64,000 nt of DNA from Herpetosiphon aurantiacus DSM 785 (lineage in GTDB: Bacteria > Chloroflexota > Chloroflexia > Chloroflexales > Herpetosiphonaceae): the NCBI GenBank assembly GCA_000018565.1, contig CP000875.1:6277199-6341198 (forward strand), given 5' to 3'. The position numbers and the translations under genes were made by a program. Under the pieces are notes generated by a model that saw only the letters and a program-made list of their open reading frames with translations, searched no databases and was not told where the DNA came from. Of the stretch, positions 19,807 to 36,108 are shown piece by piece; positions within the stretch are counted from its first letter, which is position 1; each line of letters starts with the position of its first letter.

Positions 19807-20034
19807 GCGGCGGCCTTTCTGCTCCGTAGCCTTGTGGCCACCAAACCCACGGCAAAACGGGGCAAACCCGAAGGAAGGAGTCTTCTGAGTGGTTCGATTT
19901 GAACCCTCCTCGCGCCATATTTGGTGCTGGTTGCCAACGCAACCCCTTGACTCCATGCATATAACTCAATTGGATATTGGCGGCCCCGTGCCATGAAACG
20001 GTGGCAATTAATGTTTCATGTAGGTGAAAACATC

Positions 20035-20340
20035 GTGCGTGCATACGAAATGATGACCGTCCTGCGCCCTGATTTGGGTGGCGAGGAAGAACTCAACACG
20101 ACCATCGAGACCATCCAAGGCTATATCAAAGCTCAAGGCGGCGAAGTAGCTAGCACCGAACAAGGCGCTCCTTGGGGCCGCCGCAAATTGGCCTATCCTA
20201 TCGACGACTACACTGAAGGTTTCTACTTCTTGACCCACTTCACGTTGAACGCTGATCGTGTGACTGAAGTCGAACGCCACTTGAAGTTGGCTCCACAAAT
20301 CCTGCGCTATTTGTTGATCCGCGACGAAACCAAGCGCTAA
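20035..20340 (+). CDS. rpsF: 30S ribosomal protein bS6
   Basis: A 101-residue bS6, the usual size. The start is GTG at 20035 (protein VRAYEMMTVLRPDLGGEEE), eight bases after AGGTG, and matches the family's M-R-x-Y-E-x-M-x-(I/V)-L-R-P-D opening. The open frame to 19993 adds 14 non-homologous codons within the leader hairpin. The core has WGRRKLAYPIDDYTEGFYFL, the bS6 segment that packs on bS18 in the 30S platform. It is the first gene of rpsF-ssb-rpsR with 19- and 45-base spacers, the order seen in many bacteria. Confidence 0.97.
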   Translation: MRAYEMMTVLRPDLGGEEELNTTIETIQGYIKAQGGEVASTEQGAPWGRRKLAYPIDDYTEGFYFLTHFTLNADRVTEVERHLKLAPQILRYLLIRDETKR

Positions 20341-20359
20341 AACCAACGGGGAGGAAACC

Positions 20360-20860
20360 GTGGCGAAAGATTTAAATAAAGTGATGATTATTGGTCGCTT
20401 GGGCAAAGATCCTGAAATGCGTTTTACGCCACAAGGAACACCCGTGACCAACTTCACTGTCGCCGCTGGTCGTCAGTGGAAAGACCCCAATGGCGAGACC
20501 CGCGATGAAACCGAATGGTTTTCGGTCGTGGTCTGGAACAAATTGGCCGAGATCTGTAATCAGTATCTGACCAAAGGCAGCCGCGTCTATATCGAGGGTC
20601 GGCTGCAAACCCGCTCGTGGGACGACGATAGCGGCCAGAAGCGCTTTCGTACCGAAGTGGTCGCCAGCGATATGATCATTCTTGATCGTACCGATCAACA
20701 GCAAGGCCAAGGCCAGTCGCGCAGCGGCGGCTACCAAGCTGGAGGCAATCAACGCCCACCCCGCGATAATTCCGCCAATGATTATAATCGTGGTGGCAGC
20801 TACGGTGGTGGCGCTGGCTACAACGAGCCTGATATCGGCGATGACGATATCCCATTCTAA
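20360..20860 (+). CDS. ssb: Single-stranded DNA-binding protein
   Basis: A 166-residue SSB. It starts with GTG at 20360 after GGGGAGG. Residues 1-110 form the OB fold (LNKVMIIGRLGKDPEMRFTPQGTPVTNFTVA, then TEWFSVVVWNKLAEICNQYLTKGSRVYIEGRL). A Gly/Gln/Asn-rich linker follows, and the protein ends EPDIGDDDIPF, the acidic tip that recruits replication and repair proteins (RecO, PriA, ExoI type partners). It sits between rpsF and rpsR, the classic placement. Confidence 0.97.
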   Translation: MAKDLNKVMIIGRLGKDPEMRFTPQGTPVTNFTVAAGRQWKDPNGETRDETEWFSVVVWNKLAEICNQYLTKGSRVYIEGRLQTRSWDDDSGQKRFRTEVVASDMIILDRTDQQQGQGQSRSGGYQAGGNQRPPRDNSANDYNRGGSYGGGAGYNEPDIGDDDIPF

Positions 20861-20905
20861 ACACTGTTGAATTAGAATTACTAGAACATACAAGGAGCCG
20901 TTCGC

Positions 20906-21166
20906 ATGTCAGATCAACGCCGTAAGTCGGCAGGTCGCCGCAAATACACACCCCGTCGCAAAGTGTGTGTCTTCACGGCTGAAGGGATTGTGCCAGATTA
21001 TAAAGATATCAAGCGCTTGCAACGGATGGTCTCGGATCGGGGCAAGATTTTGCCCCGCCGTCGCACTGGCACATGTGCTAAATATCAACGTAAATTGAAT
21101 GTTGCAATCAAACGCGCTCGTCACTTGGCGCTGTTGCCATTCGTTTCTGAAAATACCCGCGGTTAG
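20906..21166 (+). CDS. rpsR: 30S ribosomal protein bS18
   Basis: An 86-residue bS18. Signature segments are [42 protein letters not shown] and LALLPFVSE. Two Cys remain (positions 21 and 57), fewer than in zinc-binding C+ paralogues. AAGGAG lies eight bases before the ATG. Last gene of rpsF-ssb-rpsR, followed by a strong hairpin terminator. It pairs with bS6 on the 30S platform. Confidence 0.97.
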
Positions 21167-21188
21167 TTCTGCGTTGTTGGTTTAATGA

Positions 21189-21237
21189 AGCACAGGCACA
21201 GTCGCGAACTTCGCGCTGTGCCTGCTTTACTTTAGTT
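21189..21237 (+). terminator. Terminator after rpsR
   Basis: GC-rich stem: AGGCACAG-TCGCGA on the left pairs with TCGCG-CTGTGCCT on the right (about 21194-21223), followed by GCTTTACTTTAGTTT. Confidence 0.8.
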
Positions 21238-21262
21238 TCCCCCAATGGAGTAGGCAAGGATT

Positions 21263-22654
21263 ATGGCAAAACATACTGATAATGTGCAGCACTCAAAGCC
21301 CCTGAACAAACGGCAACGTGCTCGCTGGGATCAAGAACGCAAGCAAAGCACCCGTGTCTTGCTGATCGCTGCTGCTGCGGTTGGCTTGGCGGTGCTACTG
21401 ATTGGGATTGGGTTGGTCATTCAGAAGGTGATTGTTCCCAATAAAACGATTGCGAATATTGCAGGGGTTGAAGTTACCAACGCTGAATATCAGCAATATC
21501 GTCAAATTATGCAAGCCCAACAAGCAATTAATTTGGCTCAACAAATTCAGCAATATGCCCAATATCAATTGCAAGGTACTGAGCAATTTGCGACCGATGT
21601 CACCAATTATATTGCTGGCTTGAAAGATCAGAATGCTCCGCTTGATTATGCGGTGCTCAATCAGTTGATCAGCGATAAGATTCTTGAAAATAATGCTGCT
21701 GCTGAAGGCATTACGGTCAGTGATGAAGAATTGCAGCAAAGTTTGGCAACCAAGTTTGCTCCTGCCAACGAAGTGATGAATCCAGTTGCCCCAGTAACCT
21801 CAACGACTGGTTTGACTGATACCGCTTCGTTGACTCCAACCCCAACATCAACTCCAACCCTCAGCGAAGCCAGTAATCGGGTTGATTCAGCGGTTACAAC
21901 CTATTTTGGTACGTTGCGCGAATTTATCGAGGAAACTTCGACCTATGGCTTGGCTACCTTGCCATTTGATCGCGAAGCCTTCAAAGCGTTTGTTTTGCAC
22001 CAAGAACGTTTGCAATTGATGCGCCAAAAGCTTGGCGAAAAGTTGGTCACTGAGGATCAAGCCATTAAGGAAGTTTATGCCGATGCACAGCAAATTTTCG
22101 TCACGGCGAATATTACCGATCCTGCCGACCCTATGACTGTTACCAAGTGGCTGCAAGCTAAAACCAAAATTGATGATATTGCTGCTCAGTTGACCGATAC
22201 TGCCAGCTTTACCGACGTGCAGATCTTAAATACCAACGATAATGCAACCGATAATCCAACCACTGGCATGCAACCACTATCTCAATATGCTGCCTTTGGA
22301 ATTACCGAGCCAATTTCAACCCAAGAAGTTGGGGTGATTGGTAAGCCTTATCAATCGACCCAAGGCTGGCATATTATCTTGGTAAATCAGCGTGAGTGGC
22401 GACCAAGCCAAAGCGATTTGACTACCAAGCGCGATGAGGCGGTCAACAAGTGGATCGAGGACAAACGAGCTGTCTCGAATGTTCAGCGCTTCCCTGAACC
22501 AACCGCTACCACCGTTCCACCAACGATCGAGCCAATTCCAACCACCATTCCGCAGCCAACCACCGATCCGGCGGCGGTTACTGCAACCCCAACTGGTGAG
22601 GCTGCGCCAACCAGCGAAACTGCACCAACTGAAGCAGTAACGCCAACACCATAA
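21263..22654 (+). CDS. SurA/PrsA-like membrane-anchored peptidyl-prolyl isomerase
   Basis: A 463-residue protein with a basic N-terminus, one transmembrane helix (~residues 32-53, VLLIAAAAVGLAVLLIGIGLV), then an extracytoplasmic part. Residues ~65-260 resemble the SurA-N chaperone region (ANIAGVEVTNAEYQQYRQIM; helix-rich, Gln-rich). Residues ~290-395 look like a degenerate parvulin domain ending VIGKPYQSTQGWHIILVNQRE, the usual end of a PpiC rotamase. The last 60 residues are a Pro/Thr tail typical of Chloroflexota secreted proteins. Family role: folding of exported proteins. Catalytic activity of the isomerase domain is uncertain because the domain is diverged. Confidence 0.8.
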   Translation: MAKHTDNVQHSKPLNKRQRARWDQERKQSTRVLLIAAAAVGLAVLLIGIGLVIQKVIVPNKTIANIAGVEVTNAEYQQYRQIMQAQQAINLAQQIQQYAQYQLQGTEQFATDVTNYIAGLKDQNAPLDYAVLNQLISDKILENNAAAEGITVSDEELQQSLATKFAPANEVMNPVAPVTSTTGLTDTASLTPTPTSTPTLSEASNRVDSAVTTYFGTLREFIEETSTYGLATLPFDREAFKAFVLHQERLQLMRQKLGEKLVTEDQAIKEVYADAQQIFVTANITDPADPMTVTKWLQAKTKIDDIAAQLTDTASFTDVQILNTNDNATDNPTTGMQPLSQYAAFGITEPISTQEVGVIGKPYQSTQGWHIILVNQREWRPSQSDLTTKRDEAVNKWIEDKRAVSNVQRFPEPTATTVPPTIEPIPTTIPQPTTDPAAVTATPTGEAAPTSETAPTEAVTPTP

Positions 22655-22673
22655 GCAAAAACAGGTAGAATAG

Positions 22674-22703
22674 TGGCGGGTCAATGGCGACCCGCCATTT
22701 GTT
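22674..22703 (+). terminator. Terminator after the foldase gene
   Basis: TGGCGGGTC (22674-22682) pairs perfectly with GACCCGCCA (22689-22697), followed by TTTGTTGTTT, 20 bases after the stop codon. Confidence 0.75.
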
Positions 22704-22723
22704 GTTTAATCTGAGGAGTTGCC

Positions 22724-23638
22724 ATGAATCGATGGTGGGCCAAACGAACCTTGCGACTATGGGTTGCCCTAGCAATCACCCTGCTGATGATTGGCGCAAC
22801 GATCTGGGCAACCATGCAATTGCTGGCTGATATCTCTGGTACTGCAAGTGCCTGGCGCATCGATTTAACCACCTTTGCTTGGTTTGCAACCGCAGTTTCG
22901 GGCTTTTTGATTAGTTTGATTATGCTCTATCGGGTTGGTAGTGCTTTAACCTTGCACTATCGAGTTGATCGCAATGCCTTGACAATTCACTGGTTGGGCA
23001 ATACTGCGGTTGTGCCAATGAACTTGATCACAGCGGTTGAGCCAAGTGTTGATGTCAAGCAAAAGCCTGGTTTGCTGACGCGCTTTGGCTATATCAGCGG
23101 GGTTGGTCAGGCTGCCGATGAGCAGATTTTGAATTTCTTTAGTACCCAGCCTGCCGAGCAATCACTGCTTTTGCGCACTACTGGCGGCAGTTATGTGATT
23201 ACTCCAGCCCAACGTGATAGCTTCATCCAAGAGGTCGAGAGCCGCCTCAATTTGGGGGTTGTCCAAGTTCAAAGCGAAGGTGTGGTGCGCTCCACCCGGA
23301 TTGCCTATGATTTTTGGTTGAATAATGCCGTGCGTTGGGCATTAGTAGTTGGCCTCTTGCTCAATTTTGCAGTTTGGGGCTTAATTGCTTGGCGCTATAA
23401 CCAATTGCCGCTCGAAGTGCCAATTCGCATCGATGCGACTGGTGCGGTTAGTGGAGTCGAAGCCCGCGAACAATTATTAGCGTTGCCTTTGGTCGGCTTG
23501 TTGGCTTGGCTGATCAACGCTGGATTTGGCGCGTTGGTTTATCGCACGTCGCGAGCTGGGGCATTTGCACTCTTAATTGGTAGCTCAGTGATCCAGCTAT
23601 TTTTGGCGGTGGCAGTTTGGGTGGTGGTGCGCGGCTAG
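22724..23638 (+). CDS. Membrane protein with PH-like domain
   Basis: A 304-residue membrane protein. Two transmembrane helices (~12-33 and ~45-68) come first, then a soluble region (~72-180) starting LTLHYRVDRNALTIHWLGNT that reads like a bacterial PH-type (bPH) domain. Three more membrane segments follow, and a loop LPLEVPIRIDATGAVSGVEA resembles the DUF1648-type motif. The ATG is preceded by GAGG. It stands alone between a terminator and a converging uvrB. Function not known; PH-like membrane proteins of this kind are often linked to envelope stress, but nothing here proves it. Confidence 0.65.
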   Translation: MNRWWAKRTLRLWVALAITLLMIGATIWATMQLLADISGTASAWRIDLTTFAWFATAVSGFLISLIMLYRVGSALTLHYRVDRNALTIHWLGNTAVVPMNLITAVEPSVDVKQKPGLLTRFGYISGVGQAADEQILNFFSTQPAEQSLLLRTTGGSYVITPAQRDSFIQEVESRLNLGVVQVQSEGVVRSTRIAYDFWLNNAVRWALVVGLLLNFAVWGLIAWRYNQLPLEVPIRIDATGAVSGVEAREQLLALPLVGLLAWLINAGFGALVYRTSRAGAFALLIGSSVIQLFLAVAVWVVVRG

Positions 23639-23659
23639 CTGTGCTCAACCAGCCGCGCA
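23628..23659. terminator. Hairpin between the PH-like gene and uvrB
   Basis: TGCGCGGCT (23628-23636) pairs with AGCCGCGCA (23651-23659). The left arm overlaps the end of the plus-strand gene and the right arm ends six bases from the uvrB stop. It has no long T-run on either side, so it is a shared but modest terminator for two converging genes. Confidence 0.55.
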
Positions 23660-23665
23660 TTGCGA

Positions 23666-25762
23666 TTAAAGTTTGCCGCGTGAACGGCCTTTGACTTTGC
23701 GTTTACCAGTATCTTCAACCACCATAGCTGCTTTGGCTCGTGGTTTGCGATTGACGCTCTCAAGCAAGGCCGTGTTGTCGATCAAGGCTAGGGTTTGGCG
23801 CATTTCGGTCAGTTGGTCACGCAGCAAGGCCGCTTTTTCAAACTCTAGGTCTTTGGCGGCTTGTTTCATCTGTTTTTCAAGCGCGTTGATCACTTTGAAG
23901 AGTTCTTCTTTGGTCATGCTGTCGGGGTTGGCGGCGGTTTGGTAGGCTGCTGGTTTTTCAGCAACTTTTTTCATACCTTCGGTCAAATCGCGTACTGCTT
24001 TGACGATCCCTTTGGGTTCAATGCCATGTTGTTGATTATAACGCTCTTGAATTTGGCGACGGCGACGGGTTTCGCTGATCGCATAATCCATGGCTGGGGT
24101 AATCGTATCGGCATACATCAGCACCGTACCATCGATGTGGCGGGCAGCCCGCCCAATAATTTGCACCAACGACGATTCGGAGCGTAAGAAGCCCGCTTTA
24201 TCAGCATCAAGAATTGCCACCAACGATACTTCAGGCAAGTCTAAGCCTTCGCGCAAGAGGTTGATCCCCACCAGCACATCAAAAACCCCTAAACGTAAAT
24301 CACGCAGAATGTCGATGCGCTCAATCGTATCAACATCGGAGTGGAGATATTGAGTGCGCACGCCCATTTCTTTGAGATAATCGGTCAGATCTTCGGCCAT
24401 GCGCTTGGTGAGGGTTGTGACCAATACCCGCGAGCCAGTATCAACCCGCCGTTTGATTTCACCAAGTAAATCATCGATTTGGCCACGGGTGCGTCGCACT
24501 TCAACCATAGGGTCGAGCAAGCCAGTTGGCCGAATAATTTGCTCAACTACCTGTTCATGATGTTGATATTCGTAGACCCCAGGCGTAGCTGAAACATAAA
24601 TTGCTTGATGCACATGCTTGGAAAATTCGTCAAACATCAAGGGTCGGTTATCGAGCGCCGAGGGCAAACGGAAGCCAAAATCGACCAAGGTTTGCTTGCG
24701 CGAACGGTCGCCATTGAACATCCCACGAATTTGCGGCACTGAAATATGCGATTCGTCGATCACCAAAAGAAAATCATCAGGAAAGTAATCGAGCAATGTC
24801 CACGGTGTTTGGCCTTCGCTACGCCGATCCATATGCCGACTATAATTTTCAATTCCTGAGCAGTAGCCCAATTCTTCCATAATTTCGAGATCGTAGAGTG
24901 TGCGCTGTTTGAGCCGCGCTGCTTCAAGCACTTTGCCTTCGCCTTCGAGATGGGCTAATTGCTGTTCAAGCTCAAGCCGAATATCGCCAATTGCTGCCTG
25001 CATTTTGTCGGCGTTGGGAATAAAGTGCTTGGCCGGAAAGACTTCGATGTGATCTTTTTGGGTCAAAATCTCACCTGTCAAGGGATCAACCTCGACCATG
25101 CGCTCAATTTCATCGCCCCACATCTCGATCCGAAAGGCGCTTTCGGCATTAGCTGGAAAGATTTCGAGTGTATCGCCACGCACACGGAAGGTGCCACGGT
25201 GAAAATCAAGATCGTTGCGCTCAAATTGTAGATCGATCAGCGTTCGCAGCACTTTATCGCGGTTGCGAATCTCACCAGTTTTAAGCTTGAGTGCCACTTG
25301 ACCGTAATCCGTGGGCGAGCCAAGCCCGTAGATCGCCGAGACCGAGGCCACGATAATGACATCGCTGCGGGTAAACAGCGCTTGGGTTGCTTCGTGGCGC
25401 AAACGATCAATTTCTTCATTGATTTGCGCTTCTTTTTCAATATACAAATCCTTTGATGGCACGTAGGCTTCGGGGGTATAGGCATCGTAGTAGGAAACGA
25501 AATAGCCTACGGCATTCTCAGGAAAAAATTCTTTAAACTCAGCATACAACTGTGCGGCGAGGGTTTTATTATGTGCCATCACCAAGGTAGGCCGTTGAAC
25601 TTGCTCAATAACCCGCGCAATTGTATGAGTTTTGCCAGTCCCTGTTGCCCCCAATAAGGTTTGGTGGACAAGCCCGCTGTTTAATCCATTGACTAATTGG
25701 GCAATCGCCTGTGGTTGATCGCCACGCGGTTCGTAGGGTGCATGGACTTTTAATGGTGGCAT
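23666..25762 (-). CDS. uvrB: Excinuclease ABC subunit B
   Basis: A 698-residue UvrB, the damage-verifying helicase-like subunit of nucleotide excision repair. It has Walker A GATGTGKT (residues 38-45) and the beta-hairpin region [19 protein letters not shown]. Later come DEAD-like [10 protein letters not shown], the motif-VI segment QIIGRAARH, and a C-terminal UVR motif ([23 protein letters not shown]) that binds UvrC. A 25-residue Lys/Arg-rich tail follows. TAGGAGG precedes the ATG. Single-gene unit; a -10-like TATAAT and a partial LexA-box-like sequence lie upstream (see findings). Confidence 0.97.
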
Positions 25763-25889
25763 ACGACCTCCTAAATCACGTCATTAATTATACTGTGCTT
25801 ATGCTTATTTATGGTCGTTCTTGCGACTGATTATCGAACAATTGTGTTATTATAGCGATTTTTTAGGATTGATCGAGGATTATTTTAGG

Positions 25890-25992
25890 GGTTGGGGTCA
25901 GGGGCTAAGGATCAGTATCCAGTCCTTCGTGTCCTTCGTGGTTCCCTGATCCCTCTCCTTGGTGTCCTTCGTGTCCTTCGTGTCCTTCGTGG
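25890..25992. repeat. 9-bp tandem repeats (TCCTTCGTG) with GATCAGG-type flank
   Basis: Two copies of TCCTTCGTG lie in 25923-25941 and four (one with a mismatch) in 25956-25992, separated by CCCTGATCCCT. The 5' flank (GGGGTCAGGGGCTAAGGATCAG) is related to the hairpin at 359-425. In the plus frame the repeat reads VLRVLRG and falsely lengthens the following gene. Degenerate copies occur at 19690-19735. Confidence 0.75.
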
Positions 25993-26053
25993 ATCGAAAC
26001 CCAACCCAGCAAAATCGTGGATAATAGGCCTAAATCTGGTTGGGGAGGCACAT

Positions 26054-27448
26054 GTGGCACGGATTTGGCGTTGGCTTGGGGCTAGCTTAATCATCATTAT
26101 TGGGTTGATATGGCTTATTCGGCAGCCACCAAGTTTGGCGCGGCAAGCGGCTCAAGCTCGTTTAGCTGGCAACTGGCATCAAGCAACTCGCTTATATCAA
26201 CAATTAAACCAAACCCAGCCAAGTGTGCCCAATCAATTAGCCTTGACTGAGTTGTATTTGACTCGCGGCGAGTGGCAAGCAGCTGATTATCAATTAATCG
26301 AGGTGTTTCGCCAACCTCTGAATGTTGAACAACACCAACAAGCTTGGCAATTCTATGGCTGGGCTGGCTTGCAACGTGGCGATCAAGCTGCGGTTCAAGC
26401 AACAATTCGTACTTTAGAATCTGATCCATGGAGCCACTTGCTACAAGCCGAATTGGCGTTCCGCGTGGGCGATTTGATTAGTGCGACCAATCAATTAAAT
26501 CAAGTTCAAGCCTTGCCCCAGCCTTGGCAGAATTGGGCTTGGCTGCGGAGCGCTGAGCTGGCATTGCCCACTGATCCGAGCCTTGCACAACAGGTTTTAG
26601 CCCAAATTCAACCGCAAACCAGCGGCCCGCGCTTGGCCAATCCATGGCAGTTGCAACAACGAATTCGGCGGATGCAGCAACTTGTGCCACAAGATCCAAC
26701 TCAACGTATGCTTGGCGTGGCCAGTTTATGGAGTGAACAGGGTTTGTGGCAAGCCGCCGATCTACTGCTTAGCCAAATTCCTGCCAGCGATCAAATGGCG
26801 AGTTTTGCCGCTAACCAACGCGCCTTGTTGTATTGGAGTGCTGGTGATAATGTCACGGCGTTGGCGTTGATCGCCACGGCTCAAGAGCAATGGCCAAATG
26901 TTGCGACCCTGCCACGCACCCAAGCCAAAATTGCCGCTAGCAGTCAACAGCTCGATTTGGCCCTGGCTGCATTGCAACAAGCAGTTAATTTGGAGCCAGC
27001 CAGTAGCGAAAATTATTTAGTTGCGGCAACGATTAGCCTAAGCCAAGGCGATTTTAATGGCACTACCGCCGCCTACAATCAAGCGATTGCGACTGGGCCG
27101 TTGAGTGGCAGTTTGGCTTTAGAGGCTGCCAATTTTTATATCAATACGCCGTTGCGCCGCTGTAGCAGTGGCTTGGAGTATGCTCGTCAAGCGCTGAATA
27201 CACCAGTTGACGCGTTGGCACGGCGGGTTGTAGCCAATACTGCGTTGCAATGCTCGTTGGCGGCTGAAGCTGAACACATGATCTCGCCGCTCTATCAAAC
27301 CAGCCCTGATGATCCGCAATTGGCCTATTTATATGCTGTTGCTCGTTGGCAACAAGCCAAGCCCGATGGCCAAATGTTGCTCAAACAAGCTGCCAATCAG
27401 GCAATTCAAACCCCATGGCTTCAGCAAATTGAACAGTATTTGAACTGA
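26054..27448 (+). CDS. Membrane-anchored TPR-repeat protein
   Basis: A 464-residue protein. The start is GTG at 26054, five bases after GGGGAGG; the open frame reaches back to 25892, but those 54 codons are just translated repeat DNA. Residues 8-25 form one membrane helix (LGASLIIIIGLIWLI), so the rest is probably outside. The remaining sequence is helical tandem repeats rich in Gln, Ala, Leu and Trp (for example NWHQATRLYQQLNQTQPSVPNQLALTELY cut into helix pairs), fitting TPR units of about 34 residues. TPR proteins act as scaffolds; no partner is visible. It is followed 45 bases on by the deaD promoter. Confidence 0.75.
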   Translation: MARIWRWLGASLIIIIGLIWLIRQPPSLARQAAQARLAGNWHQATRLYQQLNQTQPSVPNQLALTELYLTRGEWQAADYQLIEVFRQPLNVEQHQQAWQFYGWAGLQRGDQAAVQATIRTLESDPWSHLLQAELAFRVGDLISATNQLNQVQALPQPWQNWAWLRSAELALPTDPSLAQQVLAQIQPQTSGPRLANPWQLQQRIRRMQQLVPQDPTQRMLGVASLWSEQGLWQAADLLLSQIPASDQMASFAANQRALLYWSAGDNVTALALIATAQEQWPNVATLPRTQAKIAASSQQLDLALAALQQAVNLEPASSENYLVAATISLSQGDFNGTTAAYNQAIATGPLSGSLALEAANFYINTPLRRCSSGLEYARQALNTPVDALARRVVANTALQCSLAAEAEHMISPLYQTSPDDPQLAYLYAVARWQQAKPDGQMLLKQAANQAIQTPWLQQIEQYLN

Positions 27449-27490
27449 GCCAGCGCAATCAAAAATTAAGAAGATGCACCTATCTGCGTT

Positions 27491-27519
27491 TTGGCATAAT
27501 CAAAAAATCATGCTATAAT
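27491..27519 (+). promoter_or_regulatory. Strong promoter of the deaD leader
   Basis: -35 TTGGCA (27491-27496), 17-base spacer, -10 TATAAT (27514-27519) preceded by TGC. Nearly consensus. Transcription should start near 27526, about 20 nt before a hairpin with a T-run and 166 nt before the helicase ATG. Confidence 0.85.
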
Positions 27520-27544
27520 CGGATCTAACGCTAAGCAGAGAACG

Positions 27545-27576
27545 AAAACGCGGGCGGTGTAGCCCCCGCGTTTTTT
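27545..27576 (+). terminator. Leader terminator/attenuator upstream of deaD
   Basis: AAAACGCGGG (27545-27554) pairs with CCCGCGTTTT (27565-27574), and six Ts follow directly (27571-27576). It lies between the strong promoter at 27491-27519 and deaD. The remaining leader can form CCGCA/TGCGG (27623-27635) and GGTAACAG/CTGTTAACC (27639-27662). It could end a short RNA of about 50 nt, control read-through into deaD, or both; it also ends the upstream TPR transcript. Confidence 0.8.
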
Positions 27577-27691
27577 GTGTCGTGCGCGTCGCTTGCTTGC
27601 CATTCGGGGGGTTAGGGCGACTCCGCACGCTGCGGGACGGTAACAGCAACGGGCTGTTAACCCTACATTCACCGAAAGGATACTCGTTTTA

Positions 27692-29446
27692 ATGACTACG
27701 TTTACGGAACTTGGGCTAGGCGAAGCGACGTTGCGGGCAATTACTGAACTTGGCTATGAAGAACCAACTCCAATCCAAGCCCAAAGTATTGGTTTGATGC
27801 TTAGTGGCAATGATATTATTGCCCAAGCTCAAACAGGTACCGGCAAAACCGCTGCTTTTTCGTTGCCAACGATCGAACGGATTGATCCCAAAGCCATGGG
27901 TGTGCAAGCCTTGATCTTGACCCCAACGCGCGAATTAGCCGTCCAAGTCTCGGATGCTATTTCAGCGTATGGCAAATATTTGAATATTCGCGCCTTGCCA
28001 GTCTATGGTGGTCAACCAATTGATCGCCAACTTCGCGCTTTGAAGCGTGGGGTCAATATTGTCATCGGCACACCTGGCCGTTTGATGGACCACATGGAAC
28101 GTGGCACGCTTGATCTTTCGACCGTGCGCACTGTGGTGCTCGACGAAGCCGACGAAATGCTCAACATGGGCTTTGTTGATGATATTGAATATATTTTGGA
28201 ACGCGCTCCCAAAGATCGCCAAACCGCTTTATATTCAGCCACCATGCCCGATGAAATTGCGCGTTTGGCTCGCAAATACTTGCGCTCACCCCAAATGGTG
28301 ACGATCGAACGCGAACAATTGACTGTACCGCAAATTCGCCAAGTCTATTATGAAATTGGCGCACGCGATAAATTTGAAGTGCTCACGCGGATTCTTGACC
28401 TTGAAATGCCAACCTCGGCGATTATTTTCTGCCGAACCAAGGCCATGGTCGATGAGCTTGGTGAAAAATTGTTGGCTCGTGGTTATGGCGCTGAATTGCT
28501 GCACGGCGATTTAAGCCAAGCTATGCGCGACCGCGTGATGAAGCGCTTCCGCGAAGAACAAGTGGAAATTTTGGTCGCAACCGACGTTGCTGCCCGTGGT
28601 TTGGATATTGAACATGTCAGCCACGTGATCAACTATGATATTCCGCTTGATCCAGAAGCCTATGTTCACCGGATTGGCCGAACTGGCCGAGCTGGCCGTT
28701 CAGGTGTTGCTGTAACCTTGGTAACGCCACGCGAACGCCGCCAACTGCGCACGATCGAACGTATGACTGGTGCTCCAATTCAACGCTTACGCTTGCCAAC
28801 GATTGCCGATGTGGTTGCCCGCCGCCGCGAAGCATTCAAAGATAACTTGCGTGAATTGATCGAGCAACACAACGAACAGGGTGGTTTGGAGCAATATTTG
28901 GTCTTGGCTGAAGAATTGGCCGAACAATATTCACCAACCGATTTGGCCGCTGCTGCCTTCAAGATGATGCTTGGTGAGCCAGATTTGACCGCCGAAGATC
29001 CTTTAGAAATGGTTGAAGACGAAGCCACCTTCGATGCTCGCCGTGGTGATCGCCGCGATAGCCGCGATAATGGTCGCCGTGGCGATCGCCGCGACAATGG
29101 TCGCGCTGGTGAGCGACCTGGTGAGCGCGGTGGCGATCGGGCTGCCCGTGGGCCTCGTAGCGGTGGCGATCGCAACAACGGTGGCCGCTCGTTCCGCGAA
29201 GAAGGCATGACCCGCTTGTTTGTAGACATTGGCCGCGAACAGGGTGTGCGCCCAGCTGATATTGTTGGCGCAATTGCCAACGAATCAGGCTTGCCAGGCC
29301 GTGCAATCGGCGCAATCGACATTTTCGATAACTTCACCTTTGTTGATGTGCCAGATGAGGCTGCGAACCGCGTGTTGGCTGCCCTTGGTCGGACCCAAAT
29401 TCGCGGTGTGAAAATCACCCCAACCTTGGCCCGCCCACGTCGCTAA
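27692..29446 (+). CDS. deaD: DEAD-box RNA helicase with DbpA-type RNA-binding domain
   Basis: A 584-residue ATP-dependent RNA helicase of the CsdA/DeaD group (ribosome assembly, cold adaptation, mRNA turnover). It has Q motif YEEPTPIQAQ, Walker A AQTGTGKT (46-53), DEAD in VLDEADEMLNMG, SAT (YSATMP), and HRIGRTGRAGRSG (motif VI). After ~430 there is an Arg/Gly/Asp-rich linker (RRGDRRDSRDNGRRGDRRD), then a C-terminal DbpA-like RNA-binding domain from ~505 (MTRLFVDIGREQGVRPADIV). AAAGGA is 11 bases from the ATG. Expression is probably set by the leader terminator upstream. A clean terminator follows. Confidence 0.93.
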   Translation: MTTFTELGLGEATLRAITELGYEEPTPIQAQSIGLMLSGNDIIAQAQTGTGKTAAFSLPTIERIDPKAMGVQALILTPTRELAVQVSDAISAYGKYLNIRALPVYGGQPIDRQLRALKRGVNIVIGTPGRLMDHMERGTLDLSTVRTVVLDEADEMLNMGFVDDIEYILERAPKDRQTALYSATMPDEIARLARKYLRSPQMVTIEREQLTVPQIRQVYYEIGARDKFEVLTRILDLEMPTSAIIFCRTKAMVDELGEKLLARGYGAELLHGDLSQAMRDRVMKRFREEQVEILVATDVAARGLDIEHVSHVINYDIPLDPEAYVHRIGRTGRAGRSGVAVTLVTPRERRQLRTIERMTGAPIQRLRLPTIADVVARRREAFKDNLRELIEQHNEQGGLEQYLVLAEELAEQYSPTDLAAAAFKMMLGEPDLTAEDPLEMVEDEATFDARRGDRRDSRDNGRRGDRRDNGRAGERPGERGGDRAARGPRSGGDRNNGGRSFREEGMTRLFVDIGREQGVRPADIVGAIANESGLPGRAIGAIDIFDNFTFVDVPDEAANRVLAALGRTQIRGVKITPTLARPRR

Positions 29447-29469
29447 ACTCATTTATTCGTCCAGTGCTT

Positions 29470-29502
29470 CGGCTCCTTGGTTGCTGCCAAGGAGCCGTTT
29501 TT
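29470..29502 (+). terminator. Terminator after deaD
   Basis: Perfect 11-bp arms CGGCTCCTTGG (29470-29480) and CCAAGGAGCCG (29487-29497), loop TTGCTG, then TTTTT. Confidence 0.9.
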
Positions 29503-29544
29503 GATTAACGTATAATTGCGCCAATCATCTTAGTGAGGTTGGCG

Positions 29545-30435
29545 ATGCAACTCGATTTGCTTGAACGTTTGCAGCAATGGCATAACCCAGTGCTTGATCG
29601 GCTGTTTTTGTGGATTACCAATATTGGCGGCGAGGATTTTTACCTGCTGCTTGGGCCGTTGATTTTTTGGTGTGTTGGAATCAACTTAGGCGTGCGATTG
29701 CTGGTGATGTTACTTGGCTCGTTCTATACCAATGCTTGGCTGAAAGATTGGTTTGATACTGCTCGACCTGCGGCGGAATATCCTGAGCGTTTTGTGTTGA
29801 GCGAAGGCGCTAAAGCCACTGCGCTCGAAGATGATGGCTCGTGGAGTCCTTCGTTTCCCAGCGGTCATGCCCAACATACCTTGGTTTTTTGGGCGTTTGT
29901 TGGCTTGTGGCTGCGCCAGCGCTGGGCTTGGGCTATTGCTGGCATTATGATTTTGCTCGTCAGCTTTTCGCGACTCTATTTGGGTGTGCATTGGCCGATT
30001 GATCTGCTTGGTGGTTGGTTTTTTGGCAGTTTAATTGTGGTCGCCAGCATCTATCTCACGCCAATTATCAGCAATTTGCCAAGCAAACAGCAAGAACGCT
30101 TAGCCTTAGCAGTGGCCGCGATCAGCTTAATTGGCTTATTGGTCGATCCTGGTGCTGATCGAGTTAAGATGCTGGGCTTTTTAGCTGGTTCGTTGGGCAC
30201 GTTGGGTTTGCAACAACGCTACGCGCAATTTCAAGTGCAAACAGTGTGGTGGCGGCAATTAATCAAAATCGTGCTGGGCATTAGCATTGTATTTGTGTTG
30301 CGGGCGCTGCTCAAAAGTATTTTGCCCGAAACGCTGATTGCTGATGGTATCCGTTATTTGATCATTGGCGTGTGGACGACCTTTGGTGCACCATTGCTAT
30401 TTCGTTTGACGATTGCTAAACCTGCGGCAAATTGA
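29545..30435 (+). CDS. PAP2-superfamily membrane phosphatase
   Basis: A 296-residue integral membrane phosphatase. The three PAP2 motifs are in order: KDWFDTARP (K-x6-R-P form), PSFPSGHA, and SRLYLGVHWPID, whose His and Asp complete the active site. The catalytic loops face one side of the membrane; six or more hydrophobic helices are visible, including three extra ones after the catalytic part. Likely substrates are lipid phosphates (phosphatidic acid, undecaprenyl pyrophosphate), but the extended C-terminus does not point to one. The start at 29545 follows GTGAGG; the earlier in-frame GTG is the SD itself. Its last 20 bases overlap the converging histidine-kinase gene. Confidence 0.85.
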   Translation: MQLDLLERLQQWHNPVLDRLFLWITNIGGEDFYLLLGPLIFWCVGINLGVRLLVMLLGSFYTNAWLKDWFDTARPAAEYPERFVLSEGAKATALEDDGSWSPSFPSGHAQHTLVFWAFVGLWLRQRWAWAIAGIMILLVSFSRLYLGVHWPIDLLGGWFFGSLIVVASIYLTPIISNLPSKQQERLALAVAAISLIGLLVDPGADRVKMLGFLAGSLGTLGLQQRYAQFQVQTVWWRQLIKIVLGISIVFVLRALLKSILPETLIADGIRYLIIGVWTTFGAPLLFRLTIAKPAAN

Positions 30436-31711
30436 GCCTAATTTGTGCACCGCCTTCTGGCCGATTGCTAAACTGGGCAGTGCCACCATGCAAGAGTGCC
30501 ACATGGCGAATCAAGGGCATACCTAAGCCGCTGCCACCCATTTTGGTCGTCCAGCCCAAGGCTTGGTTCAACGATTGAGCCTGATTTAAATGATCAAGCA
30601 AATCGGCAGGAAAGCCCTTGCCCGTGTCGTAGATCTCAATCTGCGTCGATTGAGGCGTTTGTTCAACCTGAATGAAGATTTGGCCTTCGCCAGGGTGGCG
30701 TAACAGCGCCTCGATCGCGTTTTGCAAAATCGTATGAATCGCCAAGCGCAAAAAAAGTGCATCGCCAACCACAATACAATCAGCCGGGCAATCGATCTGA
30801 ATCGTCGAATTAAGGCCATGGCGCTGCATTTCGGTTTGGCATTCAGCTTGTTCAGTTTGCAGCAGTGGCAATAATTGGATGGGAATGCGTTGTTGAGGCA
30901 GCAATTGGCCTTCGCGGGTCAGCACCAGCAATTCGGTGGTGAGTTGGCGAATTGAATCGGCGGTGGTTTGCAATACACGCACCAACTCCTGCGGATGAAT
31001 CGCATCGTGGTCGATCACTGATTGTTTGGCAAGATGTTGATTGAGCATTGGCAACAGCACATCAAGGCTATTACTGTAGGAGCGCAATTCGTGCTGGAAG
31101 AAGCGCATAAATTGGCGGACTTGCTGCTCTTTGCTCAGTTGAGCTTCAGTTTTGATCCGTGCTTTGGCAAATTGCACCGCCTGCGACGTGACCCCCCAGA
31201 GCATCAAAAACTCTAAAATGTTGAATGCGATGATAGCTGGCGTAAAAACGCGCCAACCACCAGCATGAATCGAAGCAACAATCGTGACTGAGAGCGGGTA
31301 AAAGGCAATTGGCCACCACCGCCGACTAGCCAACATTGCCATCAAAATTGGCAACATCGTCAAGACAACCACCGCCGCATCCGAGGGAATCGTCGCCAGC
31401 ACATAAAAACAGGCGATCGTGAGCACAGCAACCACAATCCAGCGTGGCCAAAGTGCATTAGGTTGGCGGAACATCCACCATGCTAAGCCGCCCAAACACA
31501 ATGTAACCCCAAAATCGAGCAAAATAACGGCGGTTGGCACATCACCATAATCTAAATTGACTGCGCCCATAATCCCAATTAATGCCGTAAACAAGGCCAA
31601 AATCGCCGTGAGCGTTGCAAATGGATCAGCGCCATGGACAATATCCTGCCACCATTGCTTGATCCAGCGCCAAGCACGCACTTTCCATGGGACGATTGGT
31701 TGCTCTGGCAT
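30416..31711 (-). CDS. Membrane sensor histidine kinase
   Basis: A 431-residue histidine kinase (453 if translation begins at GTG 31777; neither start has a good SD, and the ATG is preferred). Six hydrophobic helices occupy about residues 30-175. An H-box follows, with H ~207 in FFQHELRSYSNSL. The ATPase domain has the N-box (ILQNAIEAL, N ~331), G1 (YDTGKGFP) and G2 (GGSGLGMPL). The membrane part has no large external domain, so it may sense membrane state or an internal cue. No response regulator is adjacent, so it is an orphan. It overlaps the PAP2 gene tail to tail by 20 bases; whether they share regulation is unknown. Confidence 0.88.
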   Translation of the reverse strand: MPEQPIVPWKVRAWRWIKQWWQDIVHGADPFATLTAILALFTALIGIMGAVNLDYGDVPTAVILLDFGVTLCLGGLAWWMFRQPNALWPRWIVVAVLTIACFYVLATIPSDAAVVVLTMLPILMAMLASRRWWPIAFYPLSVTIVASIHAGGWRVFTPAIIAFNILEFLMLWGVTSQAVQFAKARIKTEAQLSKEQQVRQFMRFFQHELRSYSNSLDVLLPMLNQHLAKQSVIDHDAIHPQELVRVLQTTADSIRQLTTELLVLTREGQLLPQQRIPIQLLPLLQTEQAECQTEMQRHGLNSTIQIDCPADCIVVGDALFLRLAIHTILQNAIEALLRHPGEGQIFIQVEQTPQSTQIEIYDTGKGFPADLLDHLNQAQSLNQALGWTTKMGGSGLGMPLIRHVALLHGGTAQFSNRPEGGAQIRLNLPQV

Positions 31712-32090
31712 AGGCTTGCTTTCTTGAAATGGGCTTGAGTGGTTGCTAAGGGTTTGGTCAACGTGGCTTTCTAACACTTTTTAAGGGTTCATTTAGCCTA
31801 ATTCGATCTAGTTCTCGTTGCAAGTCAGGTAAAGCTGGTTGGATATAGGCCATGCCTAGCACTTAGTCCTATCCACAATAAGCCCTTAAGAACTGTTGTG
31901 ATATATAAATAGATCATGATTTAATAGCACTATTCCCACCAACTGTTATCAATTGTTACCGTCATTTTGTTCACCAATTGTCTGCTGGCTTATTAAAATG
32001 ATTGAAATAAGGAGCCTACTCTATCCCAAGTTTACGAGAGAATAATTCGCGTGTGCCGCCATGTTCTGCAAATCATCCTAGCATTACCAT
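31712..32090. other. Intergenic region between the histidine kinase and the sigma-like gene
   Basis: About 380 bases, AT-rich, between divergently transcribed genes. No gene, repeat or strong hairpin was recognised. AT-rich patches near 31900-31930 could hold the kinase promoter, but no convincing pair of boxes on the minus strand was found. Confidence 0.5.
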
Positions 32091-32119
32091 TTGTTATGCA
32101 GTGCAGCCGATTGTATTAA
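32091..32119 (+). promoter_or_regulatory. Promoter of the sigma-like gene
   Basis: -35 TTGTTA (32091-32096), 17-base spacer, -10 TATTAA (32114-32119). Transcription would start near 32126, 22 bases before the chosen ATG. Confidence 0.6.
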
Positions 32120-32147
32120 TTGAATTATGTTTAGAATGAGGCAGCAT

Positions 32148-32987
32148 ATGACTAAGCCCGACGACTTAACTGATATAGTAGCTGATTTGAATCAACAACA
32201 GTGCTGGAATTTAGATGGGGCGGGATGCCAGCTTCTTTGCCAGCGCAGTTGTGAAATCTTGCAACGCAACCCAATCCCCAACCCTGCCAAATTTGCTGAT
32301 GTGGTGGTTAATGTCTATCATGATTATGCCACGGTCGCCGCCGCCTGCGATCCACAACATCCTAGTCATGAACTGATTTGGGTCTCGATTATGGATGAGA
32401 TTTTGAGCTGGTATCGTTGCAAGCGCTTTTCGCTGGGCAATGGTTCGCAATTGTGTGAGCATTCACCAGATTTAGTGGCCTACGAAAATGTCAAACGTTC
32501 GCTGCCCCAATTTCGCTTTGAAGCCCGCTTGCGCAGCTATATTCACACGATCGCTGATCGGGCGATTATTCATTGGTGGCGAGCCAAGGATGCCAAAAAA
32601 CATGGTGGCAGTGGCGGACGCAGAATCCACGAAAGTAGCAATGTTTATACGCCCAAGCCCCAAGATCAAACCTATTACCTGAGCCAAAGCCATGGGCGTG
32701 ATCATCAACGTGAATTAGGCGACACGATTGCTTCGCCTGATCTTTCACCCGATGAGCATGTTGAGCGCTGTGAACTTCAACGGCACATGGCAGCTGAAGT
32801 TCACGCGATGGTCGATGATCCGCTGTATCCAATTGCCCAGCAATATTGGTATGCCTTGTTGTGCGAGGATAACAACATTACAGCTTTGGCGAAACAGCTC
32901 GGCTTGCAGGCCAATGATCTCTACAATTTGCGCGATCGGCTACGGCGGCGTTGTAAACCATTTTTGGTGCAATGGTTTTTGGTCTAA
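32148..32987 (+). CDS. Divergent sigma-70-family-like protein
   Basis: A 279-residue protein read as a diverged sigma factor. Residues ~120-160 (FRFEARLRSYIHTIADRAIIHWWRAKDAKKH) resemble region 2.2-2.4, with aromatic/basic residues for -10 melting. The last 50 residues (ITALAKQLGLQANDLYNLRDRLRRRC) resemble a region-4 helix-turn-helix. The N-terminal ~110 residues are Cys-containing (QQQCWNLDGAGCQLLCQRSC) and not typical of ECF factors; four Cys lie in about 20 residues. The ATG at 32148 is six bases after GAGG; an earlier ATG at 32127 lacks an SD. No anti-sigma factor is adjacent. It could instead be a sigma-like DNA-binding regulator. Confidence 0.6.
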   Translation: MTKPDDLTDIVADLNQQQCWNLDGAGCQLLCQRSCEILQRNPIPNPAKFADVVVNVYHDYATVAAACDPQHPSHELIWVSIMDEILSWYRCKRFSLGNGSQLCEHSPDLVAYENVKRSLPQFRFEARLRSYIHTIADRAIIHWWRAKDAKKHGGSGGRRIHESSNVYTPKPQDQTYYLSQSHGRDHQRELGDTIASPDLSPDEHVERCELQRHMAAEVHAMVDDPLYPIAQQYWYALLCEDNNITALAKQLGLQANDLYNLRDRLRRRCKPFLVQWFLV

Positions 32988-33424
32988 GTTTCGACCAACT
33001 GGGTTTTTAAACCAACCAGATTGCCTGCACTATCCTTGCCCACAATATAGGCATCGATGTTAATCTCGCCCACACGATAGACTTGGATATCGGTTAATTC
33101 GGCCTTGAGCACTTCGACCAACTGCTGAAATTGGCTAACCGTGGCTTTTTCAGCCTCGCCATGCCACTCTTGCACAGTTGTAGCATTGCCCAAGAATTGC
33201 TCAAGGCTAATGGTTTGGATGGGCTGGCCATTGGCGAGGGCTTCGGGGCTGAATGGAGTGGCAGCATCCCAAGCAAACGGCGTGAAGGGGGCATCGGTTT
33301 CGCTCATCATCAGCAAGCCATTGGCGGCGGCTGTAATTTTTTCTACGCTTGTTTCGGCCACAGAAACTCCTTGTTTACGTCGAATTGGGCTAATCCGCCC
33401 GCGACGTGGACGACGAAAGGGCAT
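32984..33424 (-). CDS. Nuclease A inhibitor (NuiA-like) family protein
   Basis: A 146-residue protein. Residues ~30-146 match the NuiA family of cyanobacterial nuclease-A inhibitors along their length: ANGLLMMSETDAPFTPFAW, LEQFLGNATTVQEW, AVV-like ATVSQFQQLVEVLKAELTDI, QVYRVGEINIDAYIVGK, and the terminal LKTQLVET. NuiA binds and blocks a secreted sugar-nonspecific DNA/RNA endonuclease. The start at 33424 is set by GGAG six bases upstream; two upstream in-frame candidates lack support. A ~25-residue Arg-rich N-terminal extension (MPFRRPRRGRISPIRRKQG) is unusual for the family. No cognate nuclease lies in the window. The stop codon overlaps that of the sigma-like gene. Confidence 0.8.
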   Translation of the reverse strand: MPFRRPRRGRISPIRRKQGVSVAETSVEKITAAANGLLMMSETDAPFTPFAWDAATPFSPEALANGQPIQTISLEQFLGNATTVQEWHGEAEKATVSQFQQLVEVLKAELTDIQVYRVGEINIDAYIVGKDSAGNLVGLKTQLVET

Positions 33425-33483
33425 ATACTGCTCCATCGACAATTGGCTGAATGGGGCTAGTATAGGGCATTTTTCGCACCAAC

Positions 33484-33514
33484 AAAAGCCCCCATCAAGC
33501 TACTGATGAGGGCT
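33484..33514 (-). terminator. clpB terminator
   Basis: AGCCCCCATCA (33487-33497) pairs with TGATGAGGGCT (33504-33514). On the minus strand it is followed by TTTTGTTGG. It begins 15 bases after the clpB stop. Confidence 0.75.
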
Positions 33515-33528
33515 GCGATTGCTAGCAC

Positions 33529-36108
33529 TTAGTCGAAACTGAGTTTGCCATTTTTAACATCAACATTGACGGTTGTGCCACCTGGGAATTTACCTTTGAG
33601 CACTTCCAAGGCCAATGGATTGAGCAACTCGCTCTGGATGGCGCGTTTGAGTGGCCGTGCGCCGAACACTGGGTCATAGCCAACTTGAGCTAAGTGCTGA
33701 CGGGCCGCTTCATTCAACACCAATTTAAGTTTGCGTTCGCTCAAGCGTTTGCTCAGCCGATCAACCTGAATATCGACGATATGTTTGATTTCAGCTTGAG
33801 TCAAGGGCTTGAAGATAATCACATCATCGATCCGGTTGAGGAATTCAGGCCGTAGCTCGTCGTGCAATTCTTCCAACACGGCTTCGCGCATCGCTTCTTC
33901 ATCATCAACCAAACTTTGAATCCGATTACTGCCGATGTTCGAGGTCATAATCACCACGGTATTGGTGAAATCGACCAACCGACCTTGGCCATCGGTCAGG
34001 CGACCATCATCGAGCAATTGCAATAGCGTGTTGAACACATCGGGATGGGCTTTTTCAATTTCGTCGAACAGCACCACGCTATAGGGGCGACGGCGCACAG
34101 CCTCGGTTAATTGGCCGCCTTCTTCGTAGCCAACATAACCTGGAGGTGCACCAATCAGCCGTGCCACGGCATGACGCTCCATATATTCCGACATATCGAT
34201 CCGCACCATTGCTGCTTCGTCATCGAACAAAAATTCAGCCAAAGCCCGTGCCAACTCGGTTTTACCAACCCCAGTTGGCCCAAGGAATAAGAACGAACCT
34301 AGTGGTCGATTGGGATCTTGCAAGCCGGCCCGTGAACGTCGCACTGCATCGGAAACGGCTTTGACCGCTTCGTGTTGGCCGATCACGCGGGCATGCAAGC
34401 GTTCTTCCATCTTGACCAGTTTCTGCAATTCGCCTTCCAACAGCTTGGAAACCGGAATACCCGTCCATTTGGCGACAACTTGAGCAATATCTTCTTCGGA
34501 GACTTCTTCGTTGAGCAACATACCATGTTCTTGCATATCGCGAACTTTGGCTTCGGCCTCGCCGAGTTGTTGCTCTAAGCTGTTGAGCGTGCCATATTGC
34601 AACTCGGCAGCACGGTTATAATCGTATTGGCGTTGAGCTTGCTCGATTTGCACCTTGGTTTGATCGATTTTTTCCTTGAGTTGAGCGATAGCATTGATTG
34701 CGCCGCGCTCACTGGAAAGTTTGGTATCGAGCACTGCCTGTTGTTCGCGCAAGTTGGCCAAATCACGTTCGAGCCGCTCCAAGCGCTCCTTGGAGGCAGG
34801 ATCTTTTTCGCGTTTCAAGGCTTCGCGTTCAATTTCCCATTGCATGCGTTTGCGCTTGATCTCATCGAGTTCAACCGGATCGCTGGTGATTTCCATGCGT
34901 AGTTTGGCAGCAGCTTCGTCGATTAAGTCAATTGCTTTGTCGGGCAAGAAGCGATCAGCGATATAGCGATTGGATAAGGTTGCGGCGGCGACAATCGCTG
35001 CATCAGTAATTCGCACGTTGTGATGGGTTTCGTAGCGTTCTTTCAAGCCGCGCAAAATCGAGATGGTATCTTCAACACTTGGCTCGCCGACCAAAACAGG
35101 TTGGAAACGGCGTTCCAATGCTGGATCTTTCTCAATATATTTGCGATATTCATCAAGCGTGGTTGCCCCGATTGTGTGCAGTTCGCCGCGAGCCAATGCG
35201 GGCTTGAGCATATTCGAGGCATCCATCGAGCCTTCGGCAGCACCAGCGCCAACCACGGTATGTAACTCATCGATAAACAAAATTACCCGACCATCAGCCG
35301 AGGTTACTTCGCTGAGCACAGCTTTGAGCCGTTCTTCAAACTCGCCGCGAAATTTTGCGCCTGCCACCAGCGCTCCCAAATCGAGCGCGATCAAACGTTT
35401 GTTACGCAGTGCTTCGGGCACATCGCCGCGCACAATCCGCGCCGCCAAGCCCTCGACTATCGCAGTTTTACCAACGCCTGGCTCACCAATTAAGACTGGA
35501 TTATTTTTGGTACGGCGTGAAAGGACCTGAATCGTGCGGCGAATTTCTTCATCGCGGCCAATGACTGGATCAAGCTTGCCGCGTTGGGCCAACGTCGTTA
35601 AATCGCGGCCATACTTTTCGAGCGCTTGATATTTACCCTCGGGATTTTGGTCGGTGACCCGTTGATTGCCACGGATGGCAGTTAAGGTTTTGAGAATCGC
35701 ATCTTTGGTAATGCCAAACGAGGTCAGCAAGCGTTGCGATGGGCCTTTGGCGCGTTCGCTTGCGAGGCCAAGCAAGAGATGTTCGGTGGAAACATACTCA
35801 TCGCCCATGCCTTTGGCTTCATTTTCGGCGGTTTGAGATACTTGATCTAAGCGTTGTCCAATGCCAGGCTGCATTTGAGTGCCACTCACTCGGGGCAAAC
35901 GGCGAATTTCATCATTAACCGCAGCAACTAAGGCCTGCGGATCGCGATCCATTTTGGTGATAATTTGCGGAACCACGCCATCAGCTTGTTCGAGCAAGGC
36001 CACAAGAACGTGTTCTGGTGTGATTTCGCTTTGGCCGTTGCGAGAAGCGATGCTTTGGGCATCAAAAATAGCTGCGCGTGATTTTTCGGTGTAAATATTC
36101 AAATTCAT
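33529..36108 (-). CDS. clpB: ATP-dependent disaggregase ClpB
   Basis: An 859-residue ClpB, full length. It has the N-domain ([13 protein letters not shown]), first AAA+ domain with Walker A GEPGVGKT (208-215), and the ~400-525 coiled-coil middle domain that separates ClpB from ClpA/ClpC ([19 protein letters not shown]). Second AAA+ domain has [11 protein letters not shown] at about residue 610 and arginine-finger text [10 protein letters not shown]. With DnaK it pulls aggregated proteins apart. GGGAGG lies 10 bases before the ATG. No CIRCE element (TTAGCACTC inverted repeat) was found in the 244 bases upstream, so heat control, if any, is by another route. Confidence 0.97.

Follow-up and report, generated by a model that had tools for sequence, protein, structure and literature searches.

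A predicted early terminator, conserved among relatives, ahead of a DEAD-box helicase gene of Herpetosiphon aurantiacus

Introduction

The level of a DEAD-box helicase must match RNA load and temperature, and to our knowledge it is unclear how most bacteria set it. Here, we consider one such gene from Herpetosiphon aurantiacus DSM 785 (genome G000 of our set). It lies within a 64,000-nt stretch of DNA (G000:C1:6277199-6341198), in the following called the window, within which all feature coordinates are counted. A sequence-only reading of the window had noticed a promoter, a stem with a run of Ts and two further hairpins ahead of the gene, and had proposed either transcription attenuation or a short independent RNA. 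Does this arrangement control the helicase gene and, if so, by what means? A conserved early terminator at a helicase gene would provide a testable case of factor-controlled attenuation that works without an RNA switch.

Results

Layout of the leader

The features of the locus are collected in Table 1. With regard to the encoded protein, the best NCBIfam models are CshA, DeaD (PRK11634) and DbpA, each scoring below its equivalog cut-off; judged from its sequence, the helicase is a member of the CshA/DeaD/DbpA class.

Table 1. Predicted features of the helicase locus (positions within the window)
Feature	Position	Strand	Basis
TPR-protein ORF, outside the element	25892..27448	+	ORF list, domain search
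Sigma-70-type promoter TTGGCA-17-TATAAT, extended -10 (TG 27511-27512)	27491..27519	+	11/12 match; rarity; kept in six genomes of the genus
Likely start and short 5' segment ahead of the stem	27526..27548	+	Start predicted at about 27526; antiterminator not found by folding
Predicted intrinsic terminator: stem 27549-27554 with 27565-27570, apical pairs, T6 27571-27576	27549..27576	+	Folds, scan, paired changes across genera
Predicted hairpin 2 of the read-through leader, outer helix CGTGCG/CGCACG	27581..27629	+	Fold; conservation
Predicted hairpin 3, GGTAACAGC/GCTGTTAACC	27639..27662	+	Fold; C/A difference in the loop within the genus
Shine-Dalgarno (SD) GAAAGGA	27674..27680	+	Read from the sequence
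DEAD-box RNA helicase, 584 aa, ATG start	27692..29446	+	DEAD, Helicase_C, DeaD dimerization and DbpA RNA-binding domains

The near-consensus promoter of the sequence-only reading was confirmed at 11/12 positions, with the TG of the extended -10 element one base 5' of the -10 box. Its stem with six Ts about 20 nt past the promoter was recovered as well: the predicted terminator begins 20-23 nt past the likely start, and both further hairpins are part of the minimum-energy fold ahead of the gene. That is, a predicted terminator sits between the gene's own promoter and its start codon.

The terminator hairpin (CGCGGGCGGTGTAGCCCCCGCG at 27549-27570, with an AAA/TTT extension from 27546) is detected by a custom scan and by folding. 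The default terminator scan of the window missed 27549-27576, probably due to a loop or an inner mismatch beyond its limits. The segment 27526-27580 folds with -20.9 kcal/mol (z -2.24), a value reached by 6/200 shuffles, and the energy of hairpins 2 and 3 is by itself unremarkable (z -1.72, 12/200 shuffles equally good). Overall, the folding energies of the leader are modest (z -2.03, -2.24 and -1.72).

The first 57 nt from 27520 adopt the terminator fold (-20.6 kcal/mol). Constrained folding of the nascent leader yielded no antiterminator, i.e., barring one or the other arm of the stem left -4.2 or -5.7 kcal/mol. Since folding finds no antiterminator, control, if there is any, would have to act through proteins or RNA polymerase. 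The stem gains stability in the cold: at 10 °C its energy is -34.8 kcal/mol, compared to -20.6 kcal/mol at 37 °C. Cold induction would therefore need a factor that melts it. By eye, there is no ATG between the likely start and the stem, and a TTG frame of 22 codons 3' of the stem spans the site of a 1-nt indel that separates genomes of the genus. The Rfam search of the 64-kb window gave no match to a known riboswitch or leader at the gathering score. Within the leader, the best hit was L20_leader with 24 bits (E 0.011) vs a gathering score of 58.7; we judged this and weak sRNA matches, all below the gathering score, to be chance.

Expected frequency of promoter-terminator pairs

The leader promoter is the top of 17 promoter-like sites in 20000-35000, and this number of sites is about the shuffled mean of 16. 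Across 120 other stretches of the genome, which amount to 4.8 Mb of strand, we counted 17 promoters of its class (at least 11/12 positions plus TG), compared to 3, 1 and 1 in three dinucleotide shuffles. For pairs of promoter and terminator, we counted 13 in 2.46 Mb vs 8, 1, 6, 6 and 5 in five shuffles, i.e., a genome-wide excess of only about 2.5 times the shuffled count. Such a pair is found 5' of 5/1492 ORFs of the source genome, a fraction slightly biased upward by six of the 120 stretches that had been chosen for pattern matches. These background ORFs were tested for stems with at least 5 G-C pairs over 320 nt and a further 60 nt of the ORF, whereas the helicase loci discussed below were tested for at least 4 G-C pairs within 400 nt. 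Given the modest folding energies and a pair excess of about 2.5 times chance, statistics from the single genome are only suggestive, and it is conservation, rather than the rarity of the pair alone, that makes the case. Searching the source genome for copies of the leader reported only its own place (13/19 first-look candidates scored), and a search of 60 genomes, its own included, gave one match each in 7 genomes.

Conservation within the genus

We compared the window's genome with five others of the genus; region borders move by one base in three of the six genomes due to the 1-nt indel. Variable columns are scarce from the start to the U-tract (3/58), from the U-tract to the SD (3/93) and in the final 20 nt before the ATG (2/20). 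The promoter varies in 5/30 columns, compared to 14/43 between the TPR stop and the promoter and 203/603 at the end of the TPR gene. In the helicase gene itself, 151/293 fourfold sites are variable, as are 27/1162 first and second positions. By eye, the differences within the leader fall mostly into loops (G/A in the terminator loop, an extra A in hairpin 2, C/A in hairpin 3), and the remaining ones adjoin the -10 box and the SD. Judged from these alignments, the terminator and the read-through leader alike are under strong constraint.

Conservation beyond the genus

A helicase match with E<=1e-100 is present in 48/60 genomes (own included), for which 38 upstream regions were read. A hairpin with a T-run downstream of a -10 box is found in the ten best-scoring of these 38 orthologues, 111 to 313 nt ahead of the compared start. 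Eight of the ten belong to family f1, namely G007, G008 and the six genomes of the genus; the remaining two, G016 and G048, belong to family f3. By reading, the other 28/38, including those from families f2 and f4, lack the arrangement, which is therefore lineage-specific. In G006 of the same family, no helicase match was obtained at the cut-off; this genome is 75% complete.

The split into 10/10 and 0/28 rests on manual reading. We give formal counts beside it, requiring a stem of at least 6 pairs, at least 4 of them G-C, with one mismatch and a promoter 8-50 nt before: 8/10 of the best-scoring orthologues and 1/28 of the others (L114) pass. The two failures among the ten are due to stem interruptions (L094) and a weak -35 box (L097). 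L114, where a better promoter adjoins the gene, was judged different despite passing; when at least 5 G-C pairs are demanded, it drops out (it has 4) and the eight remain. A terminator-like hairpin is found upstream in 4/28 of the other orthologues, i.e., in L114 and, without a promoter, in L108, L119 and L123.

Within the eight passing orthologues of the best ten, 41-51 nt separate the end of the -10 box from the end of the stem. The arms were entered by hand and no further than they pair. Counted from the T-run, all five lineages retain the first five stem pairs, with matched changes between lineages: C-G becomes T-A at pair 3, and G-C becomes A-T at pair 4. Between genera, the 5' segment shows little conservation, the layout is kept, and the folds after the terminator disagree with one another beyond the genus. 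The sequence-only reading had asked for conservation of the stem in related genomes, and this is what we observe, both in the layout and in the paired changes of the stem. With the layout retained in close relatives even where some of the letters differ, the leader is probably a genuine control element.

This holds independently of the gene upstream. In three of the four other genera (G007, G008 and G016) the longest upstream ORF lies on the opposite strand (short ORFs on both strands are also listed; for G048 the picture is ambiguous), such that among the ten best-scoring of the 38 orthologues read the arrangement is kept before the orthologous gene whatever precedes it.

Leaders of nusA genes

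The rimP-leader has been described as a short conserved GGGc...gCCC terminator with no visible antiterminator, for which NusA was named as the best candidate factor (Naville and Gautheret 2010, PMC2965389). NusA of B. subtilis autoregulates: according to a 2025 review (PMC12288461), it stimulates termination within its own 5' leader. A search for RF01770 gave nothing in the window at the gathering score and nothing in the helicase leader at E<=5; eight nusA loci are likewise unmatched at E<=1. Genome-wide, no hit exceeds the cut-off, the best one, located elsewhere, having 22.5 bits vs 47 (150/354 candidates scored).

We matched nusA in 57 genomes and read 30 upstream regions, of which 21 were aligned, leaving out nine near-duplicates. 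All 30 Chloroflexales loci read (L159, L253-L282) show a leader hairpin GTGGG...CCCAC with a T-rich tail; that of the source genome is at L159:12295-12446 (G000:C1 about 552295-552446). A -10 box is found 26-32 nt before the hairpin in 19/30 loci. The terminator script flags 11/30, and by this test the nusA hairpin is thus a weaker or shorter terminator. Nine pairs hold in 21/21 aligned sequences, six of which are invariant and one shows paired changes in 6. The hairpin looks like a counterpart of the rimP-leader placed directly before nusA.

By eye, the helicase leader of the genus resembles the nusA leader. A covariance model of the latter recovers nusA genome-wide (E 4.9e-14). Applied to 117 kb (window plus helicase loci), it places the helicase terminator first with 11.2 bits (E 0.97), next to chance matches on the other strand of 10.3 and 10.0 bits. 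The leaders of the other genera (L094, L095, L096, L097) are unmatched, and the helicase leader is not among the four genome-wide matches with E<=10 (150/682 candidates scored). Membership of the helicase leader in a nusA-leader family is thus not supported and, since the match is not significant, we claim neither shared ancestry nor a shared factor. It is plausible, by analogy, that the helicase leader works like the nusA leader.

Other leaders with early terminators

We also inspected the best 80 DEAD-box relatives from other taxa, picked by similarity. A promoter-to-terminator pair precedes 7 of these genes and any terminator-like hairpin 25, compared to means of 0.07 pairs and 1.5 hairpins in 40 shuffles. 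Among other ORFs in the same loci, which are uncurated as genes, pairs are found for 4/223 and hairpins for 38/223. The enrichment of pairs (7/80 vs 4/223) has a one-sided Fisher p-value of 0.009 with relatedness ignored. Five of the seven pair-bearing records are presumably Lachnospiraceae, going by record names, and the sample is thus not independent. Early terminators may recur at DEAD-box genes.

Individual loci of this set were read as well. Five Lachnospiraceae records and a Nitrospirae MAG (L022, L024, L026, L028, L031, L046) have promoters matching 10-12/12 positions, followed by terminator-like hairpins. The helicase genes of Metasolibacillus, Ureibacillus and Lysinibacillus records (L060, L062, L063) have a hairpin GCTCGGCAA(A/C)GACCGGGC in common; it lies 134-158 nt ahead of the start and carries a T-rich tail.

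Within family f1, pyrG (CTP synthase, named by eye) shows TATAAT directly followed by a hairpin and T-run in 8/9 genomes by eye and 7/9 by script (L149:1501-1564, i.e., G000:C1:2028503 onward, and L291-L298). The arrangement is reminiscent of the CTP-sensitive attenuator at pyrG in Firmicutes. In several genomes of other families, pyrG has a GGGGAAGG...CCTTCCCC hairpin instead. In layout, the nusA and pyrG leaders of the same family resemble the helicase leader. Two further loci of the source genome have TATAAT as well: ahead of a dnaE-like gene (L150, G000:C1:4842959) it is followed by a T-run, the hairpin being ambiguous, whereas ahead of a threonine-synthase-like gene (L151, G000:C1:5770765) a clear hairpin and a T-run follow it. 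Both genes were named by eye. The single cold-shock-domain match in the source genome shows no such leader by eye.

Discussion

Given its layout and conservation, we consider the element to be, with fair probability, a promoter-proximal, factor-controlled transcription attenuator of the helicase gene with a structured read-through leader. RNA polymerase would start near 27526 from the strong extended -10 promoter and reach the intrinsic terminator between about +24 and +51. Some of the complexes would stop there and leave a 50-nt RNA, while the remaining ones would read through the structured 115-nt 5' UTR into the helicase gene. The share that reads through would probably depend on the state of RNA polymerase or on a factor acting in trans (candidates being termination factors of the NusA/NusG type, an RNA chaperone and the helicase itself), and probably on neither a riboswitch nor a leader peptide. 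We infer the start site, termination and regulation from the DNA.

Could the hairpin serve the gene upstream instead, the promoter ahead of it being a chance match? The stop of the TPR ORF (27448) lies about 100 nt ahead of the hairpin, and on the + strand the default scan lists no terminator-like site in between. In the source genome, the hairpin may additionally stop read-through from the TPR gene. Nevertheless, the -10 box and terminator remain in G007, G008 and G016, where the longest upstream ORFs are divergent. The hairpin is thus not simply the 3' terminator of an upstream gene, and the promoter is conserved well beyond the sequence just upstream of it. We therefore regard service to the TPR gene only, which the sequence-only reading had named as an outcome that would overturn its proposal, as highly improbable. 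An independent gene for a small RNA of about 50 nt acting in trans, with the helicase mRNA arising by leaky read-through, is improbable to a lesser degree. It accounts for the complete promoter-terminator unit and for a 5' segment that is nearly invariant in the genus, but this segment is poorly conserved between genera, where the layout and the place ahead of the same gene are kept, and the 115 nt 3' of the terminator are equally conserved in the genus. Of the two suggestions initially made for this leader, the attenuator is thus the one it looks like; a 50-nt RNA may be a by-product, but as an independent RNA it fails to explain the 115 nt.

Two further explanations concern how the attenuator would work. 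The terminator might simply damp expression to a low fixed level without regulation. Folding finds no antiterminator, no known RNA family matches at the gathering score, and a strong stem with six Ts might hold expression low unregulated; on the other hand, across the genus the entire leader is more constrained than a fixed terminator would seem to require. We consider such constitutive damping rather unlikely. The helicase might also unwind or bind its own leader hairpins, as the sequence-only reading had suggested, which would result in cold induction or autoregulation; we hold this to be about equally unlikely. The protein belongs to the CshA/DeaD class and carries a DbpA RNA-binding domain, and terminator-bearing leaders are found at some DEAD-box genes of other taxa. 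Caulobacter crescentus rhlE has a structured 186-nt 5' UTR and a reporter that is expressed higher in the null strain (PMC5472812), and B. subtilis authors raise a possible action of CshA on the structured vmlR leader (PMC9226507). On the other hand, the greater stability of the stem in the cold would favour termination unless a factor melts it. Factor-controlled attenuation remains our preferred reading.

A broader idea would place helicase genes and the nusA operon under a shared factor-dependent attenuation, sensed by NusA or the helicase without an RNA antiterminator, that links helicase supply to termination capacity; this design would have arisen repeatedly at DEAD-box genes in distant groups, e.g., Lachnospiraceae and Nitrospirae. 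We think this unlikely on the present data.

In the literature searched, mostly at the level of abstracts and outside subscription journals, we found no description of attenuation at DEAD-box genes, and the word 'helicase' is absent from the main text of PMC2965389. By analogy, the nearest precedent for the control of the helicase leader would be the leader of the rimP/nusA type. Both are short, show no visible antiterminator and precede a gene of RNA metabolism, and, by eye, both stems have a G-rich 5' arm and a C-rich 3' arm, with GGGc...gCCC in the window. In contrast, the helicase leader precedes a DEAD-box helicase gene instead of rimP-nusA-infB, and the sequence of its stem varies between genera. 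Among helicases, Caulobacter rhlE is the nearest precedent found; it shares with our locus a long structured leader before a DEAD-box helicase gene and possible self-regulation (PMC5472812). The text consulted there discusses mRNA stability and translation, with no mention of a premature terminator in rhlE. With regard to mechanism, the intrinsic terminators of E. coli metY-rpsO are melted by CspA-type chaperones without an RNA antiterminator. This relief of a terminator by an RNA-melting protein is what we propose as possible for the helicase leader, metY-rpsO being a mechanistic analogue only. Thus, as predicted from its sequence, the helicase leader would add a member to a known kind of element, i.e., the attenuators that act by an intrinsic terminator in the 5' leader.
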